A DNA stretch of 60,781 nt from Candidatus Bathyarchaeota archaeon (GTDB taxonomy: Archaea > Thermoproteota > Bathyarchaeia > TCS64), in NCBI GenBank assembly GCA_018652685.1, contig JABIBQ010000057.1, forward strand, positions 1 to 60,781. Reading direction: 5' to 3'. This document shows, piece after piece, positions 40,169-53,797 of the stretch. Numbering within the stretch: position 1 is the first letter of the stretch; every line of letters begins with the position of its first letter. Below the pieces are notes generated by a model. The model had not been told where the DNA came from and did not search any database. It saw only the letters and a list, made by a program, of their open reading frames with translations. A program made the translations under genes and the position numbers.

Positions 40169-41275
40169 ATGTCTGAGGCAACCTTGAAAAAAGGCGGCGT
40201 ATGCATCTATGACATGTCAGACATTTTCGAGCCATATATGATCCGGGACATGCTGGTGAGGAATCGCTTCATGAGAAGCGCGACCACCAGCGCGTTCTCG
40301 GACGAGAACGGTATAGTCAACGACACCATCATCAAGCACTATGAGAAAATGAGCAAGGGAGAGTGCGGCCTCATAATCAAGGGCCACCTCTACATCATGG
40401 ACAGCGGGAAAGCTCACGACGGCATGGCGGGTATCAGCAAAGACGTCCAGATACCCATGCTAAAGAAGCTAACTGATGCAGTGCATGAGCATGGCGGTCA
40501 CATCGTGGCACAAATCAACCACGGAGGAGTGGTCCACTCGCCCGACAGAGCGGGGCCAAGCGTGTACGGCGAGGATGACTGGATAGCCAGAGCGTTCAGC
40601 GGCGACGAGATTGAGTCTATTATCGAGGGATACGGGGACGCTGCCGAGCGGGCCATGCAGGCTGGGTTCGACGCGGTCCAGATCCACGGCGCACATGGTT
40701 ACCTCATCAGCCAGTTCCTCAGCAAGCACGTCAATAAGCGCGAAGACAAGTGGGGTGGAAGCCTTGAAAACAGAATGAGGCTTCTGCTCGAGGTCTACGA
40801 CGAGGTGCGCGGAAAGCTGGGGAACGCACCGGTAATGCTCAAGATGAACAGCGATGACTTCAGCGATGATGGTTTCACCATTGAAGAGTCGGCCATCGTC
40901 GCAAAGGCGATCGCGGCCAAGGGAATCGACCTCATCGAGGTAAGCGGAGGAGGTAGGGGGAGAAGGGCAGACCTCAGAGAGAGGGCAAAGAACTCAGATT
41001 ACCCGGACCTTGACTTTGGCGGCCACGCCGTCAAGATCAGGGAGGCCACCGAGCCCACACCAATGGGACTCGTCCACGGTTACACCAACCTGGAGACCAT
41101 GGAGAAGACTATCGAGGCTGACCTGACAGACATGGTGAGCATGAGCAGGCCATTCATCAGAGAACCGGGACTCGTCAAGAGGCTCAAGGCAGGCGCAAAG
41201 GAGACAACATGCATCCGCTGCGATGCGTGCAGAGCAAACTTCGGTGTCGCTATGATGCAGTGCCTTCTTGAGTGA
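40169..41275 (+). CDS. Old Yellow Enzyme-family NADH:flavin oxidoreductase
   Basis: The 368-residue FMN protein matches the OYE family: NRFMRSATTSAFSDENG near 29-45, the catalytic-pocket QINHGG, and FDAVQIHGAHGYLISQFLS followed by NKREDKWGGSLENR. The C-terminus adds CIRCDACRANFG, which resembles the cysteine spacing of the larger, iron-sulfur-containing 2,4-dienoyl-CoA-reductase-like members but stops before their second flavoprotein domain. It probably reduces activated C=C bonds. It is convergent with the LivH-like gene, overlapping by 26 bases. Confidence 0.88.
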   Translation: MSEATLKKGGVCIYDMSDIFEPYMIRDMLVRNRFMRSATTSAFSDENGIVNDTIIKHYEKMSKGECGLIIKGHLYIMDSGKAHDGMAGISKDVQIPMLKKLTDAVHEHGGHIVAQINHGGVVHSPDRAGPSVYGEDDWIARAFSGDEIESIIEGYGDAAERAMQAGFDAVQIHGAHGYLISQFLSKHVNKREDKWGGSLENRMRLLLEVYDEVRGKLGNAPVMLKMNSDDFSDDGFTIEESAIVAKAIAAKGIDLIEVSGGGRGRRADLRERAKNSDYPDLDFGGHAVKIREATEPTPMGLVHGYTNLETMEKTIEADLTDMVSMSRPFIREPGLVKRLKAGAKETTCIRCDACRANFGVAMMQCLLE

Positions 41276-42833
41276 TCCCTAACATCTCCTTTATTCTGGA
41301 CCAGAGGTTGATGAGCCTCTGCTTGTCAATACCACCGGGCCCAGTGATCCCGTTGGGGAAGATGAAGAGAGCGACCACTAGGAACCCCATGGGGAAAAGT
41401 CCCTGCCAGTTCATTACCGCCAAACCAAACAATTCATAGAATACCTTGTTCAACACCACCTGAGACAAGGAAACGAAGAGGCCGCCGATTATCGCCCCGT
41501 AGACGTTATAGACACCTCCCATAATGGCGCCGCTCATGACGTTGACAATCATGTCATCGGTGCCCCCCAGTCTAGTCCCGCCGTGGATCGTCATGATGCT
41601 GCCTACCAGCGCGGATAAGGCTCCGGAGATAAACCAGCTGGCGTAGTGAGCTCTGTCGGTGTTGATCCCGATGGTGGCAGCCAGGGGCTCATTCTCGGCC
41701 ACTGCCCTGAGGCTCAACCCGATCTTGTTCTGTGTCAAAAAGTATCTGAGCCCGATGATGAGCAGTATGCATGTAGCGGTGCTGATGATAGCTATGCCCG
41801 GTATACCTTGGTAGTTGAAGTCATAATACCCGAGGTAGTACCCCTGTGCCGGTACATCCCCGAAGTACCTGGCCCAGTAGTTGAAGATCAGGTAAAGGTA
41901 GGGCAGTACCTGCGCGATCACGATGAACGTGAGTGTTAGGGTGATATCCTGGTAGCCACCGTGCGACCGGATGCGCTTGACAATGCCTACGTAAAGGATT
42001 ACACCGAAGATACCCCCGACAAGGGCCGCAAACGGCCAAGTATCATACGCGTTGAAGTTAAAGAATCGGGCAAGTATGAAACTCACCATGGCTCCCAACC
42101 CTGCATAGCTTGTGTGAGCAAAGTTGGGGAAGCCTTCCATCATGTACGTGAAGCTAAAACCAATGGTAAGCATTATCATCAATGCAACGTTGATGAGGGT
42201 GTTCACGTCGAAGGGCAGCTTAACGGAGCCCTCGGATCGCGGCCTCTGACCAGGGTAATGGTCAGTGATGGTTGCCCTGGTGTGGTTGAATATGCGGAAC
42301 AGGTCCGTGCGGTTGCCGTCAATGTCGTGCTCAACGATAACGGTGATTGTCCTGGCGCTGTTGGTGCAGTTCCAGTAACCTACGTATCCAGTGCGGTTAC
42401 CAGATTCACTGATCCTATCAAACTCGCTATACATCATATAGTGCTCGTGGACCGACTCGTTGACGGGATCTCCGAAGGTGTACACAGCCTCCACGTCTGA
42501 CCGGTTGTAGCTCATGTATGCCGCATCGCTCATGTTCATGGGAACGATGTCATCCCACGCAAAGGCGATGTTTGGTAGATGGGTCTCATTCTCGTACCTG
42601 ACCCGGAAGGAGTATCCTTCCTCATAACGAAGCCGCCCAGTCCCAAGAGTGCTGTAGTTGAACCTCATCCCGGCGTCTCCCTCAAAGTTCACGCCCGCCC
42701 GGTTGTACCACCATGTATCCTCCTCCACGACCTCGTAGGCGAGGGGGTTCATGATCTGGTTCGCTGCGGTTATGACTAAGATGATCCCTAGGATGGCGAT
42801 GAACGTGTTGCGGCTTATCTTGTCTCCCATCAC
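41250..42833 (-). CDS. LivH-type ABC permease with a large extracytoplasmic N-terminal domain
   Basis: The 527-residue protein ends in a normal branched-chain amino-acid permease domain (about 210-500, with EGFPNFAHTSYAGLGAMVSF, SLRAVAENEPLAATIGIN and GGTRLGGTDDM). The first helix (about 8-27) is followed by an extra domain of roughly 180 residues containing several N-x-S/T sites (NYST, NETH, NMSD, NRSD, NRTG, NCTN), predicted to lie outside the cell. No LivM, ATPase or binding-protein gene is nearby. The upstream DUF1624 gene ends six bases before it, so they form an operon. The extra domain may replace or dock a solute receptor. Confidence 0.82.
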   Translation of the reverse strand: MMGDKISRNTFIAILGIILVITAANQIMNPLAYEVVEEDTWWYNRAGVNFEGDAGMRFNYSTLGTGRLRYEEGYSFRVRYENETHLPNIAFAWDDIVPMNMSDAAYMSYNRSDVEAVYTFGDPVNESVHEHYMMYSEFDRISESGNRTGYVGYWNCTNSARTITVIVEHDIDGNRTDLFRIFNHTRATITDHYPGQRPRSEGSVKLPFDVNTLINVALMIMLTIGFSFTYMMEGFPNFAHTSYAGLGAMVSFILARFFNFNAYDTWPFAALVGGIFGVILYVGIVKRIRSHGGYQDITLTLTFIVIAQVLPYLYLIFNYWARYFGDVPAQGYYLGYYDFNYQGIPGIAIISTATCILLIIGLRYFLTQNKIGLSLRAVAENEPLAATIGINTDRAHYASWFISGALSALVGSIMTIHGGTRLGGTDDMIVNVMSGAIMGGVYNVYGAIIGGLFVSLSQVVLNKVFYELFGLAVMNWQGLFPMGFLVVALFIFPNGITGPGGIDKQRLINLWSRIKEMLGITQEGTAS

Positions 42834-42839
42834 ATCACC

Positions 42840-43967
42840 CTATATGTACTGGAGCACCGATCCACGGTGATTTCTCTTCAATATCTCGTATCTCTTGCAC
42901 AACTCGTAGAGGACATAAAGACCCAGAACCCAGAGAGCCAGAGTCGGAACCATAGGCATGTAGAACATCCCAGGCGCACCCGGCAGCCTCAGCCTGTACA
43001 GCCACAGGTGTGTCAGGTAGAAGAAAAGCGGAACTCGCCCGTACTGGTTAAGCACGCCCGTGACCCCCGTGTTGAAGGTGGACTTGTCCTGGTGCTTCAA
43101 CGCGTAAGACATGAACAGGCACATGCCCCCGAGGGTCCAGAGGAGGAACGCCTGGCTGGGCGGGTACTTGCTCACGTACAGCCAGTCCACGAGGCTCCAG
43201 CCCTGACGAGGCAGCAGATTACCGTAGCCGTTGATGCCCCTAACGAGGATGAATAATCCGATTGATGCTAGCCCTATCTTTCTCAGTGGCCCCTCCAGCC
43301 CCCTGATCTGCTCGGGGGTATAACCGCTGATGATTGACCCGAAGACCCATCCCATCCCCATGCCTCCAAGCCACGGCAGTATTGGGTATAGCCCCACCCA
43401 TGGCCTCATCTCGAAGTTGGGCTCGTGGAGAATCACCCTCAGGTAGTGGCCCCATGCCACGTCGTTGGGGATAAAGTCCAGATTGATGAAGTTGTGGTTG
43501 AATACGATGAACAGGCTCAGGGCCAGTATGAGCCAATTGGGCAGCTTCCTTGCGAAGCTGAATATGATAAAGTTGAGGCCGATGCACGCGATGACGCCGA
43601 AATAGGCCCACGGTGTCCCGAAGGCAGGGGCCACAATCAAGCTCTCCGCCACCAGTAGCACGATACCCCTGATGACTATCCTGCCGCTGATGTCGAACTG
43701 TGACTCTCCCCTTGCCTCGCGTTTGATTGTCGAGATGGCCAGCACCGTCCCCGCCAGGAAGATAAACGTGGGGGCGCAGTAGTGGCTCACAAACCGAACA
43801 AGGAACCACGTGGTGTTCATGAAGGGCCTCATGGCTCCCATGACGCCCTCGCTTCCCTGGTGGAACTGGTTCCAGAACCCAGAGACATGGTCCCATGCCA
43901 TTATCGCCATCACAAGCCCGCGGGTGAAGTCTATGAACTGGAGCCTACCTGCAGGTTTGGATGCCAT
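42840..43967 (-). CDS. DUF1624/HGSNAT-like membrane acyltransferase
   Basis: The 375-residue protein has about ten membrane helices and starts with RLQFIDFTRGLVMAIMAWDHVSGF, the characteristic DUF1624/heparan-glucosaminide N-acetyltransferase N-terminus with its acidic and histidine residues. PWVGLYPILPWLGGMGMGW and GRVPLFFYLTHLWLYRL are also family-like. Members are thought to transfer acetyl groups from cytoplasmic acetyl-CoA to external sugars. It is the first gene of a pair with the LivH-type permease; a link between surface glycan modification and transport is only an inference. Confidence 0.82.
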   Translation of the reverse strand: MASKPAGRLQFIDFTRGLVMAIMAWDHVSGFWNQFHQGSEGVMGAMRPFMNTTWFLVRFVSHYCAPTFIFLAGTVLAISTIKREARGESQFDISGRIVIRGIVLLVAESLIVAPAFGTPWAYFGVIACIGLNFIIFSFARKLPNWLILALSLFIVFNHNFINLDFIPNDVAWGHYLRVILHEPNFEMRPWVGLYPILPWLGGMGMGWVFGSIISGYTPEQIRGLEGPLRKIGLASIGLFILVRGINGYGNLLPRQGWSLVDWLYVSKYPPSQAFLLWTLGGMCLFMSYALKHQDKSTFNTGVTGVLNQYGRVPLFFYLTHLWLYRLRLPGAPGMFYMPMVPTLALWVLGLYVLYELCKRYEILKRNHRGSVLQYI

Positions 43968-48216: not shown

Positions 48217-48765
48217 ATGATTTGGACAATAGTGGGAGCCGCCGTGGTAATCGGTGGAGCCCTAGTTCTAATTTATGTAAATTACTACAACAAAATCCAG
48301 ACCCTGAGCAACCGCATAGAGGAGGCCTGGGCACAGATAGACGTGCAGCTACAGAAGCGGTACGACTTGCTCCCCAACCTGGTCAACACGGTAAAGGGCT
48401 ACGCGAGCCACGAGAAGGAAATCTTCGAGGGCATCGCCAACGCCAGGGCCGGAATGGTCACTGGAAGCAGGCAGGCAAGGGTTGAGGCGGACAACATGGT
48501 CTCCCAGATGATGGGCAGGCTATTTGCAGTAGCCGAGGCATACCCTGACCTGAAGGCACAGGAGAACTTCAAGCTCCTTCAGGAGCAGCTAGAGGGCATG
48601 GAGAACAAGATCGCTTACGCGAGGCAGTTCTACAACGACACGGTGCTGGACTTTAACAACGTGGTGACCACCATCCCCGGCGTATGGTTCGCCGGCGGAC
48701 GAGGAAAGGAGGACTTCCTGGAGATCCCAGACGAGGCCAGGACGGCCCCGAAGGTAGAGTTCTAG
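48217..48765 (+). CDS. lemA: LemA-family membrane protein
   Basis: The 182-residue protein has one N-terminal transmembrane helix (about 3-20) followed by the long helical LemA domain: NRIEEAWAQIDVQLQKRYDLLPNLVNTVKGYASHEKE, then a second helix pair with QENFKLLQEQLEGMENKIAYARQFYND, and the conserved LDFNNVVTTIPG. LemA is commonly paired with HtpX-type proteases, as here (stop and next start are one base apart). Role: membrane-associated partner, details unknown. Confidence 0.93.
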   Translation: MIWTIVGAAVVIGGALVLIYVNYYNKIQTLSNRIEEAWAQIDVQLQKRYDLLPNLVNTVKGYASHEKEIFEGIANARAGMVTGSRQARVEADNMVSQMMGRLFAVAEAYPDLKAQENFKLLQEQLEGMENKIAYARQFYNDTVLDFNNVVTTIPGVWFAGGRGKEDFLEIPDEARTAPKVEF

Positions 48766-48766
48766 T

Positions 48767-49666
48767 ATGGAGAGAAGAAGCTTCCACGACGAGCAGTCCC
48801 GGAACAAGAGGGACAGCATCCTGCTGGCAATAGTGGTCAGCGCGGTGCTGTTCGCCCTCATCGTGTCAATCAGCTACCTGTTCGACCCGAGCAGCGTTGC
48901 GATAATGGTACCCCTGGGCATCATGTTCACGGGCATCTACACTTGGAGCAGTTACCAGTACGGCGACAAGGTCGTACTGATGTCAACCAATGCACAGCCA
49001 GCCGAGGGTAACAAGTACATCTACCTTAACGACACAGTCGAGGGGCTGGCGATAGCCGCCGGGATACCAAAGCCGGACGTCTACGTGATGCCTAGCATGG
49101 AGCTCAACGCGTACGCCACAGGCAAGGACCCGGAGAATGCATCCATAGCGGTCACACAAGGGCTCCTTGATACCCTCGACAGGCAGGAGCTTGAGGGAGT
49201 CATAGCCCACGAGATCAGCCACATCAGGAACAAGGACGTCCAGTTCATGACCCTGGTGGCGGTACTGGTCGGGATCGCGGGCATACTGAGCCATATGATC
49301 CTCCGCAGCTGGAGGTTCGGTGGAAAGAGGAGGAGCGATAAGAACAACGGCAGCATCGACGTGCTGATCCTTGGCATCGGTTTCCTGCTCGCCATATTTG
49401 CCCCCATACTCAGCCGTCTAGTCCAGATGGCTGTCAGCAGGAGCAGGGAATACCTCGCGGACGCATCGGCGGCCGAGATGACACGTTACCCAGATGGCCT
49501 CGCTGATGCGCTGGAGAAGCTGGGCAAGCACAACAGAGGTGATATGAAGGTAAGCGAGTCGGTGAGCCACATGTTCATCAGCGACCCAAACAAGACCGCG
49601 CTGGACGCACTGTACAGCACACACCCCCCGATAGAGGAGAGGGTGAAACGGCTACGCGAGATGTAG
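48767..49666 (+). CDS. htpX: HtpX-type M48 membrane metalloprotease
   Basis: The 299-residue protein has two N-terminal helices (about 18-36 and 43-60), the zinc motif HEISH with His148, Glu149 and His152 in GVIAHEISHIRNKDV, two further hydrophobic segments, and the third-ligand segment SRSREYLADASAAEMT near 223. HtpX proteases degrade damaged membrane proteins. Operon partner lemA precedes it directly. Confidence 0.94.
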   Translation: MERRSFHDEQSRNKRDSILLAIVVSAVLFALIVSISYLFDPSSVAIMVPLGIMFTGIYTWSSYQYGDKVVLMSTNAQPAEGNKYIYLNDTVEGLAIAAGIPKPDVYVMPSMELNAYATGKDPENASIAVTQGLLDTLDRQELEGVIAHEISHIRNKDVQFMTLVAVLVGIAGILSHMILRSWRFGGKRRSDKNNGSIDVLILGIGFLLAIFAPILSRLVQMAVSRSREYLADASAAEMTRYPDGLADALEKLGKHNRGDMKVSESVSHMFISDPNKTALDALYSTHPPIEERVKRLREM

Positions 49667-49720: not shown

Positions 49721-50851
49721 ATGACAGCGTTACAGGGAATCAGAGTACTGGACCTCACCCACGCACACGCAGGGCCCATTTGCACATTATACATGGCCGC
49801 GATGGGGGCTGACGTCATCAAAATCGAGCCAAAATGGGGCGAGATGACCAGGATGTTCCCCCCGTTAGTGAAGGGCCAAAGCCCGTACTTTTTGTTCCTC
49901 GGCAGGGGAAAGAAGGGAGTCACACTGGACCTCAAGAACCCGGAGGGCAACGACATGTTCAAAGAGCTTGTCAAGGACGCGGATGTGGTAATGGAGAACT
50001 TCAGCCCCGGCACCATGGACAGGCTTGGCCTTGGTTATGATGTCCTCAAGGAGATCAACCCAAAGATTATCTACGCCAGCATCAGCGGTTTCGGCCACAC
50101 GGGCCCATGGGTCAACAGGAAGAGCTTTGACCCCATAGCTCAAGCAGCAAGCGGATACATGTGGGTCACAAAGGACGCACTAGCACCTGACGGCCCGCCA
50201 CTGCAGTCACCCGAGGCTATTGCGGACACTGTCCCTGGTTTCACCGCGCTCATCGGGATACTGGCTGCAATCGTAAGCAGGAACGAGACTGGCAGGGGCC
50301 AGAAAGTTGACGTGGCCCAGATGGACAGCATGATCGGCACCATGCAGAGCTTTAGCTTCTGGAACCTCACCCAGATGTCATGGACGAGGGCGGGCAAATC
50401 GGGAAGGGTTGGTGTCTCGGGCCTAAGAGAAACCAGTGACGGTTACGTGATGTTCGCGTTGCCACCGGGAAGGATCACGGACAGCTTCACTGCGCTACTC
50501 GGGGTCGAGGAACTGACACCAGAGATAGTGGACGGTTGGGTCAAGGAGAAGACCACAGATGAAGTGGTGAATATCCTCGCGGAGACGGGCGTACCGGTTT
50601 CTGCTGTGTTGGACCTGGACGAGGTCCAGGCCAGCCCGCAGGCCGAGGCGCGTGAGATGTTCGTCAAGGTGGACCACCCGACAATGGGCGAGCTGGTCCA
50701 ACCTGGGTTCCCTATCAAGTTCAGCGAGACCAAAGGGGACATCTCGGCACCGTCCCCGCTATTGGGCGAGCACAACGTCGAGGTCTACACCAGACTCCTT
50801 GGCTACTCGGCGGAGAAGGTCGAGGAGCTCAGGAAGAAGGGCGTCATCTAA
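49721..50851 (+). CDS. CaiB/BaiF family III CoA-transferase
   Basis: The 376-residue protein belongs to the formyl-CoA transferase/CaiB family, which forms interlocked dimers and moves CoA between acids such as formate/oxalate or carnitine/crotonobetaine. Family features include GIRVLDLTHAHAGP at the start, GADVIKIE, the FLFLGRGKKGVTLDLKNPEG block, and ISGFGHTGPW. The catalytic aspartate corresponds to Asp169 in EAIADTVPG, the same number as in Oxalobacter Frc. It is shorter than Frc (about 425) and ends cleanly. Followed 67 bases later by the interrupted thiamine-diphosphate enzyme, with which it may have formed a pathway. Confidence 0.9.
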   Translation: MTALQGIRVLDLTHAHAGPICTLYMAAMGADVIKIEPKWGEMTRMFPPLVKGQSPYFLFLGRGKKGVTLDLKNPEGNDMFKELVKDADVVMENFSPGTMDRLGLGYDVLKEINPKIIYASISGFGHTGPWVNRKSFDPIAQAASGYMWVTKDALAPDGPPLQSPEAIADTVPGFTALIGILAAIVSRNETGRGQKVDVAQMDSMIGTMQSFSFWNLTQMSWTRAGKSGRVGVSGLRETSDGYVMFALPPGRITDSFTALLGVEELTPEIVDGWVKEKTTDEVVNILAETGVPVSAVLDLDEVQASPQAEAREMFVKVDHPTMGELVQPGFPIKFSETKGDISAPSPLLGEHNVEVYTRLLGYSAEKVEELRKKGVI

Positions 50852-50917: not shown

Positions 50918-52567
50918 TTGAAGATTAAAGCAGTAGAGGGACTAGTCGAGGCCCTGAAAACAGAGGGCATCAGGGGGGTTGCGACCTTCCCCACCACTCC
51001 TATCAACAACGCCATCGGGGCAGACCCTGACATCAACATATTCATGGTCAGGGACGAGCGGTACGCCGTCGCGGTAGCAGACGCTTACAGCCGGGTCATG
51101 GACGGAAAGGACTTCGGCGTTTGCACCGTCATGGGGGGCGTCAACGCGGCGGGAACACAGATGGCGTACGGTGCCCTCGCTCAGGCGTACGAGGACTCTG
51201 TGCCACTCCTCTGCCTGACCGATGGCGTGGAGGCCGTGGAGTACGGCAGGACGCGTTTCAGCATCGACGAGGGCTTCAAGTCCGTAACCAAGTGGTGCGG
51301 CTACATCAACAGGGCAGAGAGGGTGCCTGAGTACATGCGCAGGGCATTCACCAAGCTCAAGACGGGCAGGCCATCGCCGGTACTCCTCCAGCTCCCGAAG
51401 GACCTGGGCGACTACGAGACAGTGGATTACCCATACGCCAAGGTCAAGGGCTGGAGGAGCATGGGGGACCCCAAGGACGTCCAGAAGGCGGTAAAGGCAG
51501 TGAAAAAGGCACGAAACCCCATATTATTCGTTGGGCAGGGCGTCTTCTCGGCCGACGCCGCATCGGAGCTCAGGGAGTTCGCAGAGGCAGCTCAGCTACC
51601 GGTGCTCACTACACTGAAGGGAAAGAGCGTCTTCCCCGAGGACCACCCACTGTCGCTGGGAGTCAGGGGCGAGCCGGCGGAGCGGTTCCTCATGAAGGCG
51701 GACCTTGTGCTGACGGTGGGCATGGGGCACAACCCCTGCCACTTCATGCACAAGATACCCGACGCGGTCCACAAGAAGATCATACAGGTGACCATCGACG
51801 ACAGCGACCTCAACACCGAGTACCTTGTTGACCACGCCATCATGGGGGACGCCAAGCTTGTCCTTAGACAGCTCAACGGGGAGCTTGAGAAACAGGGGAC
51901 ATCCAAGCTCAACGAGGCGTTGCACAAGGAAATCGAGGACTCATGGGCCACCATGATGAAGACGTACACACCGCTCATGGAGTCCAATGAAACTCCCATC
52001 AACCCGTACAGGGTATACGGCGACCTCATGAAGGTGCTGGATATGGAGAAGAGCCTGGTCACCCACTAGTCGGGGAACACGCGAGACCAGCTGAGCGCGG
52101 TCTACAAGTCACAGGTACCCCACGGGTTCCTCGGCTGGGGCAACGTGACCACCCTCGGCTACGGCCTCGGGGGAGCCATGGGGGCAAAACTGGCGTTCCC
52201 GGACTGGCAGGTAGTCAGTGTCACGGGAGACGCAGGAGTTGGATACCAGATGGGCAACTGGGAGACAATGGTACGGTACGAGATGGGAATAACAACGGTC
52301 CACATCAACAATGATGGGTTCGGTGGCTACGGCCCAGGGTTCTGGGGAAAGGGCCACAGCCCGTACACCTGGGAGCTGACAGGCCACAAGGTCCAGAGCA
52401 GTGCCAAGGTAGCTGAGGCCCTCGGAATCCAATCCGAGAGAGTGGACGACCCAGACGAGGTGGCGCCAGCCCTAAGACGGGCTATGAAGGCAAACGCCTC
52501 GAACAGGCCGTACCTGCTGGAGTTCATCTGCAGCAAGCACCCCGTTTTCCCCGGATGGATCCGCTGA
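50918..52567 (+). pseudogene. Acetolactate-synthase-like ThDP enzyme interrupted by one in-frame TAG
   Basis: One uninterrupted frame of 550 codons, normal length for the family, runs from TTG 50918 to TGA 52565-52567, except for TAG at 52067-52069 (codon 384). The N-terminal part has the ThDP-activating glutamate (Glu47 in RDERYAVAVADAY) and the central domain; after the TAG come SGNTRDQLSAVY, FLGWGNVTTLGYGLGGAMGA and the ThDP/Mg motif GDAG (437-440) to NND (466-468). Related enzymes have an acidic residue at the TAG position. Both halves are well conserved with no frameshift, so either the nonsense change is recent, or it is read through, or it is a sequencing error. Reaction: decarboxylation or carboligation of a 2-oxo acid; substrate unknown. 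Confidence 0.8.
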
Positions 52568-52609
52568 TCCTCCCCCTTCTTTTCTTTCATCTTCTTGACA
52601 ACGAAACGA

Positions 52610-52614
52610 TTTAA
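52610..52614 (+). promoter_or_regulatory. TATA-like box of the second M20 gene
   Basis: TTTAA lies 26-30 bases before ATG 52640, selecting it over the ATG at 52595. Confidence 0.45.
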
Positions 52615-52639
52615 CACTCAAGGCATCATCAACTTGGAT

Positions 52640-53797
52640 ATGGTGACTCACGTCGACCCAACCAAGCTCACAGAACTACTCAAAGACATGGTTAAGATTG
52701 ACTCGGTGAACCCCTCCCTGGTACCTGGGGCAGCTGGTGAGGCCGAGATCGCGTCCTACCTCAAGGACTGGATGGAATCAGTGGGCCTGGTGACTGAGTT
52801 AGTCGAGGTGGAGCCTGGACGCCCCAACGTCATCGGTACACTCAGTGGCTCTGGCGGCGGAAAATCCCTGATGCTTAACGGACACACCGATGTAGTGGGT
52901 GTGGATTACATGACCATTGACCCCTTTGACCCGGTCATCAAGGAGGGCAAGCTCTACGGAAGGGGAAGCTTTGACATGAAGGGCGGTCTCGCGTCGAGCA
53001 TGGCCGCGGTCAAGGCCATCGTTGACTCGGGGGACCAGTTGAGGGGTGATGTCATCATCGCCGCTGTCTGTGACGAGGAGTTCGCCAGCATCGGGACGGA
53101 GCACCTCATGAAGGAGACCGTCGTTGACGCGGCAATAATCAGCGAGCCCACTTTCTTCAACGTCCAGGTCGCCCACAAGGGTTTCGCTTGGATCGACGTG
53201 ACTACACACGGCGTCGCGGCCCACGGCAGCGATTTCGGCCGGGGGGTTGACGCCATCGCCAAGATGGGACACGTCCTCATCGGAGTCGAGGCGATACAGA
53301 ACATACTGGGAGAGACAAAGCACTCCCTTGTTGGGCCGGGCAGTATCCACGCCAGCATTATCAGCGGTGGAGTCGAGCTCAGCACGTACCCTGACAGGTG
53401 CAAGCTGGAGGCGGAGAGGCGGCTCATCCCCGGCGAGACAAGAGAGGACGTGGAGGCCGAGATGGAGGGACTCCTCCAGAGCCTCAGGGAGGGTGACCCC
53501 AAGTTCAAGGCAGATTACGAGATCACGTTCTACAGGGGGTCAATGGAGATCAGCCCAGACGAGGAGATCTGCAAGGTGCTGAAACAGGGGAGCCTTGAGG
53601 TCCTCGGGAAGGAGCCACAGTGGGTTGGGGGAAGCGGCTGGATGGACACACAGATAATCCATGGAAAAGGCATCCCAGCAGTTGCGTTTGGCCCAATAGG
53701 GTTCGGGGCACACGGGGCAGAGGAGTGGATTGACCTGAACTCGGTCCACAAGGCCGCGGAGGTCCAGGAGTACGTCATCAGAAAGTTCTGCGCCTAA
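52640..53797 (+). CDS. M20-family metallopeptidase/deacylase 2
   Basis: The 385-residue enzyme has the M20 zinc-site sequence: His82 and Asp84 in NGHTDVVG, Asp112 in GRGSFDMKGG and the acidic pair in CDEEFASIG near 144. The lid/dimer domain lies at about 175-290. It resembles ArgE/DapE/acetylornithine-deacetylase-like enzymes more than carboxypeptidases, by length and motif spacing. It follows the ThDP enzyme by 72 bases with its own TATA-like box. Substrate: an N-acyl amino acid or similar amide. Confidence 0.87.
   Translation: MVTHVDPTKLTELLKDMVKIDSVNPSLVPGAAGEAEIASYLKDWMESVGLVTELVEVEPGRPNVIGTLSGSGGGKSLMLNGHTDVVGVDYMTIDPFDPVIKEGKLYGRGSFDMKGGLASSMAAVKAIVDSGDQLRGDVIIAAVCDEEFASIGTEHLMKETVVDAAIISEPTFFNVQVAHKGFAWIDVTTHGVAAHGSDFGRGVDAIAKMGHVLIGVEAIQNILGETKHSLVGPGSIHASIISGGVELSTYPDRCKLEAERRLIPGETREDVEAEMEGLLQSLREGDPKFKADYEITFYRGSMEISPDEEICKVLKQGSLEVLGKEPQWVGGSGWMDTQIIHGKGIPAVAFGPIGFGAHGAEEWIDLNSVHKAAEVQEYVIRKFCA

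Follow-up and report, generated by a model that had tools for sequence, protein, structure and literature searches.

A single in-frame TAG in the gene of a ThDP-dependent enzyme from a Bathyarchaeota genome, probably a very recent nonsense allele

A gene for a ThDP-dependent enzyme in a Bathyarchaeota genome raises the question whether the one TAG within its reading frame is a mutation that breaks the gene, a wrong base in the assembly or a codon that is read through. The gene is located on the plus strand at 50918–52567 of a 60,781-nucleotide contig (contig C87; JABIBQ010000057.1), referred to below as the window. The source genome is a MAG of 2.38 Mb in 99 contigs, with 94.9% completeness and 8.66% contamination, and as it was the single genome of its species in the comparison, the TAG has been observed once. 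The original prediction described a ThDP frame of 550 codons, split at codon 384 by a TAG that had either arisen recently or was read through.

The frame was found to start with TTG and to consist of 549 codons followed by TGA, with the TAG at codon 384 (52067–52069) as its sole interruption. The TTG start was backed by the close orthologues of the genus, which have the same TTG-AA[GA]-ATT beginning. When the two pieces were searched separately against Pfam, the part upstream of the TAG (50918–52066; 383 codons) matched TPP_enzyme_N (PF02776) and TPP_enzyme_M (PF00205), corresponding to the PYR (N) and middle domains, and the 165 residues downstream of it (52070–52564) alone matched TPP_enzyme_C (PF02775; E = 1.7e-25), the ThDP-binding C domain with its GDAG...NN motif. 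Reading through the TAG gave all three TPP_enzyme domains in order and above the Pfam cut-offs; with the TAG read as a stop, the C domain is not part of the same translated product, since the TAG precedes it, at the very boundary between the middle domain and the C domain. No frameshift, no further stop and no surplus of amino-acid changes were found in the frame, and the nearest orthologues were of equal length with no indel, so the predicted normal length and single interruption were both borne out. The C-domain match, the equal length of the orthologues and the acidic codon of the relatives described below show that the in-frame continuation past the TAG is not due to chance.

Among solved structures, the best matches were oxalyl-CoA decarboxylase / 2-hydroxyacyl-CoA lyase (PDB 8vzj, 8vzc, 8vza; residues 9–527, approximately 180 bits). 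These share with the window enzyme the three-domain layout and an acidic residue at the position matching codon 384, but the similarity is remote and the window copy is interrupted. In NCBIfam, NF004807 (PRK06154, thiamine pyrophosphate-requiring protein) gave the best match and covered the full length, but its 481.7 bits fell below the curated cut-off of 607, so that the enzyme does not qualify as a formal member. A further likeness to the oxalyl-CoA decarboxylase systems is the adjoining gene for a class III CoA-transferase (CaiB/BaiF; PF02515) at 49721–50851 on the plus strand. However, among the loci examined, three relatives from the genus were the only ones in which this gene adjoined the ThDP gene; it may thus be a late neighbour, and its confinement to the genus makes it weak evidence for an oxalate-type pathway.

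The other side of the ThDP gene is occupied by a gene for an M20-family peptidase (52595–53797, plus strand; PF01546, PF07687), and a lemA-like and an htpX-like gene, named from sequence, are located at 48217–49666 on the same strand. The order amidohydrolase-alaX-lemA-htpX-CaiB-ThDP-M20 peptidase was kept in genome G007 and also, apart from some insertions, in G002, and the order lemA-htpX-ThDP was retained in more distant genera. This conservation of gene order shows that the ThDP genes compared are orthologues and not paralogues. Replacement of the enzyme's function by a paralogue was considered and rejected, since identity to the genome's remaining ThDP matches was just 28–32%.

A clear orthologue was present in six of the eight genomes of the genus, the window's own included, and a seventh genome (G005) contained the first 151 residues, cut by the end of its contig. 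Full-length open frames were found in G007, G001 and G002 (93, 91 and 90% identity, respectively); the frame was also open in G004 (74%) and, across the 480 residues present on its contig, in G006 (73%). In a codon alignment, the equivalent of codon 384 was GAG in G007, G001, G002, G004, G020, G010 and G018 and GAA in G006. Asp was found at this position in L011 and L016, and the remaining family orthologues that span the site contained Glu or Asp within the block [VI]TH[ED]SG[NGS]TR. A TAG at this codon was absent from all family orthologues covering the site. The TAG is therefore a single G-to-T step away from the GAG of the four close orthologues (G007, G001, G002 and G004), and the expectation that relatives have an acidic residue here, one step from TAG, was confirmed by the alignment.

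An apparent natural split of the ThDP gene in G022 was rejected, as the half gene adjoins a scaffold gap of N, and ThDP matches with an internal TAG in G002:C99 and G001:C78 were rejected, as these alignments belong to a remote paralogue and extend beyond its normal stop at the end of the gene. The syntenic ThDP orthologue of a different genus of the family (L043:3490-5120; G014:C2), which also lies beside the M20 peptidase gene, is broken by a frameshift and by several stops, both TGA and TAG, and is clearly a pseudogene. Decay of the gene in that genus was an independent event, which indicates that some members of the family can do without the ThDP enzyme.

Within the window, TAG was found to be an ordinary stop. 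It terminates 17 of the 47 long non-overlapping ORFs when the ThDP frame is counted (16 others), and both lemA and htpX end in TAG, at the same residue as their relatives, which stop with TAG or TAA. This stop usage and the gene ends matching those of relatives led us to reject a genome-wide reassignment of TAG, in agreement with the original prediction. On the minus strand at 41250–43967, an HGSNAT-like acyltransferase gene is followed in the same frame by a BPD_transp_2 permease gene, with TAG and six bases between them; as the two matched different families, they look like neighbouring genes and not one split gene.

The age of the TAG was estimated from the selective constraint on the gene. 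Between the window and G007, dS was approximately 0.59 on either side of the TAG, and dN/dS was 0.078 upstream and 0.031 downstream of it. A parsimony count on four sequences, which gives rough figures, assigned 52 synonymous and 12 nonsynonymous changes to the window lineage compared to 98 and 17 for the three relatives (Fisher p = 0.53), and the unconstrained share of the window lineage came to approximately 2%, with an upper limit of approximately 8% when the neutral ratio is taken to be near 3. Purifying selection is thus undiminished on both sides of the TAG, from which it follows that the TAG is younger than approximately 8% of the lineage or is absent from the real genome. The ThDP gene either lost its function only a very short time ago or still has it, the TAG then being an erroneous base or a codon at which translation continues.

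The best reading of these results is that the window probably contains a very recent null (nonsense) allele of a functional ThDP enzyme, and we infer that the TAG base is real in the organism. The starting state would have been a functional enzyme of the oxalyl-CoA decarboxylase / 2-hydroxyacyl-CoA lyase / acetolactate synthase superfamily, in which one very recent G-to-T change would have converted the conserved Glu384 codon GAG to TAG. Translation would then halt after the N and middle domains and give a 383-residue product. In this family the C domain, with its GDAG...NN motif, holds the diphosphate of ThDP and the metal, and since the whole C domain is lost at codon 384, the product should not bind ThDP and would be predicted from family knowledge to be inactive. 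That the enzyme can be lost is supported by the G014 pseudogene. The gene resembles recent nonsense pseudogenes of prokaryotes in having one premature stop in a conserved gene with intact relatives, but differs from them in that it has not yet decayed further.

This missing second sign of decay counts against a null allele, and a wrong base would leave the gene looking just the same. The main rival is accordingly that most cells carry an intact gene, the TAG having entered the assembly as an artefact of consensus calling, sequencing or binning or, if the metagenome assembly is a composite, from a minor strain, and this we regard as possible, though on balance not the expected outcome. It is favoured by the draft state of the genome, with its many contigs and its contamination, by the TAG being the lone defect in a fully constrained gene and known from one assembly only, and by G-to-T being a common type of damage error. 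Against it, the frames of the six syntenic neighbours compared were all unbroken, and the window showed no further split gene that was convincing; besides, consensus base errors are rare in short-read contigs, provided that these are well covered.

That pyrrolysine or some other suppressor lets translation pass the TAG and yields the full-length enzyme is very improbable. A review of recoding in archaea describes demonstrated read-through of stop codons there for the incorporation of selenocysteine and pyrrolysine (PMC8211752). In the present gene, the strong purifying selection both before and after the TAG would fit read-through. A genuine PylS (279 bits) is encoded at G054:C1:350087-350806 in another family of the class, so the trait is present in the class and some of its members may use pyrrolysine. 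However, the best PylS match in the window's own genome reached 21 bits compared to a cut-off of 178 and lay inside a 505-aa frame; matches below the cut-off were likewise obtained in 13 of 14 control genomes, and across the family's 26 other genomes no PylS match exceeded it. PylD matches in the own genome were noise (best 23.7 bits, cut-off 150), and neither a PylB match, nor a Pyl-type MttB (trimethylamine methyltransferase), nor a pylT-like anticodon pattern was found in this genome. No CUA anticodon occurred among its 47 tRNA matches, the intron-containing genes (Met, Tyr, Leu) being resolved separately; two of the 47 probably represent a single gene where contigs overlap, and the survey is incomplete in that tRNA-Trp and tRNA-Leu(CAA) were missing and a divergent pylT could evade RF00005. 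An identical intron-containing tRNA-Leu(TAA) was present at G000:C9:1-107 and G000:C60:133758-133862, both contig ends, which suggests that these two contigs overlap or join there. The 100 nt following the TAG folded no better than shuffled sequences (z 0.13), TAG serves as an ordinary stop for other genes of the window, none of the relatives carries it at codon 384, and a Lys-like residue at a Glu/Asp site would probably not be neutral. The gene resembles the UAG-recoded MtmB, MtbB and MttB in being an archaeal enzyme gene with one in-frame TAG; unlike those, it comes from a genome in which no Pyl machinery was found, is no methylamine methyltransferase and has a TAG that is unconserved in relatives. 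Of the two alternatives originally proposed, recent origin was thus supported by the GAG of the relatives and the intact selection, and the search for pyl genes and a CUA tRNA spoke against read-through. To a gene-specific, PylS-independent suppression of UAG that restores the full-length enzyme where TAG is otherwise a normal stop, we give hardly any credence.

A two-subunit enzyme with a C domain made separately by re-initiation is extremely unlikely: natural two-subunit ThDP enzymes exist and the stop falls exactly at the domain junction, but the first common start after the TAG is a GTG at 52145, approximately 25 codons into the C domain, and no relative is split, the half gene of G022 adjoining its run of N.

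The in-frame TAG looks like an ordinary gene-breaking mutation of very recent date or a single wrong assembly base; nothing directly useful was found in the literature on premature stops in archaeal MAGs. It provides a useful negative control for pyrrolysine screens based on in-frame TAG codons, as a lone TAG with conserved flanks does not count as evidence for recoding where a sense codon is present in close relatives. If the nonsense allele is real, it would be one more instance of an uncultured archaeon having recently lost a gene, here for an enzyme that is conserved in the family and yet has been lost elsewhere in it at least once.
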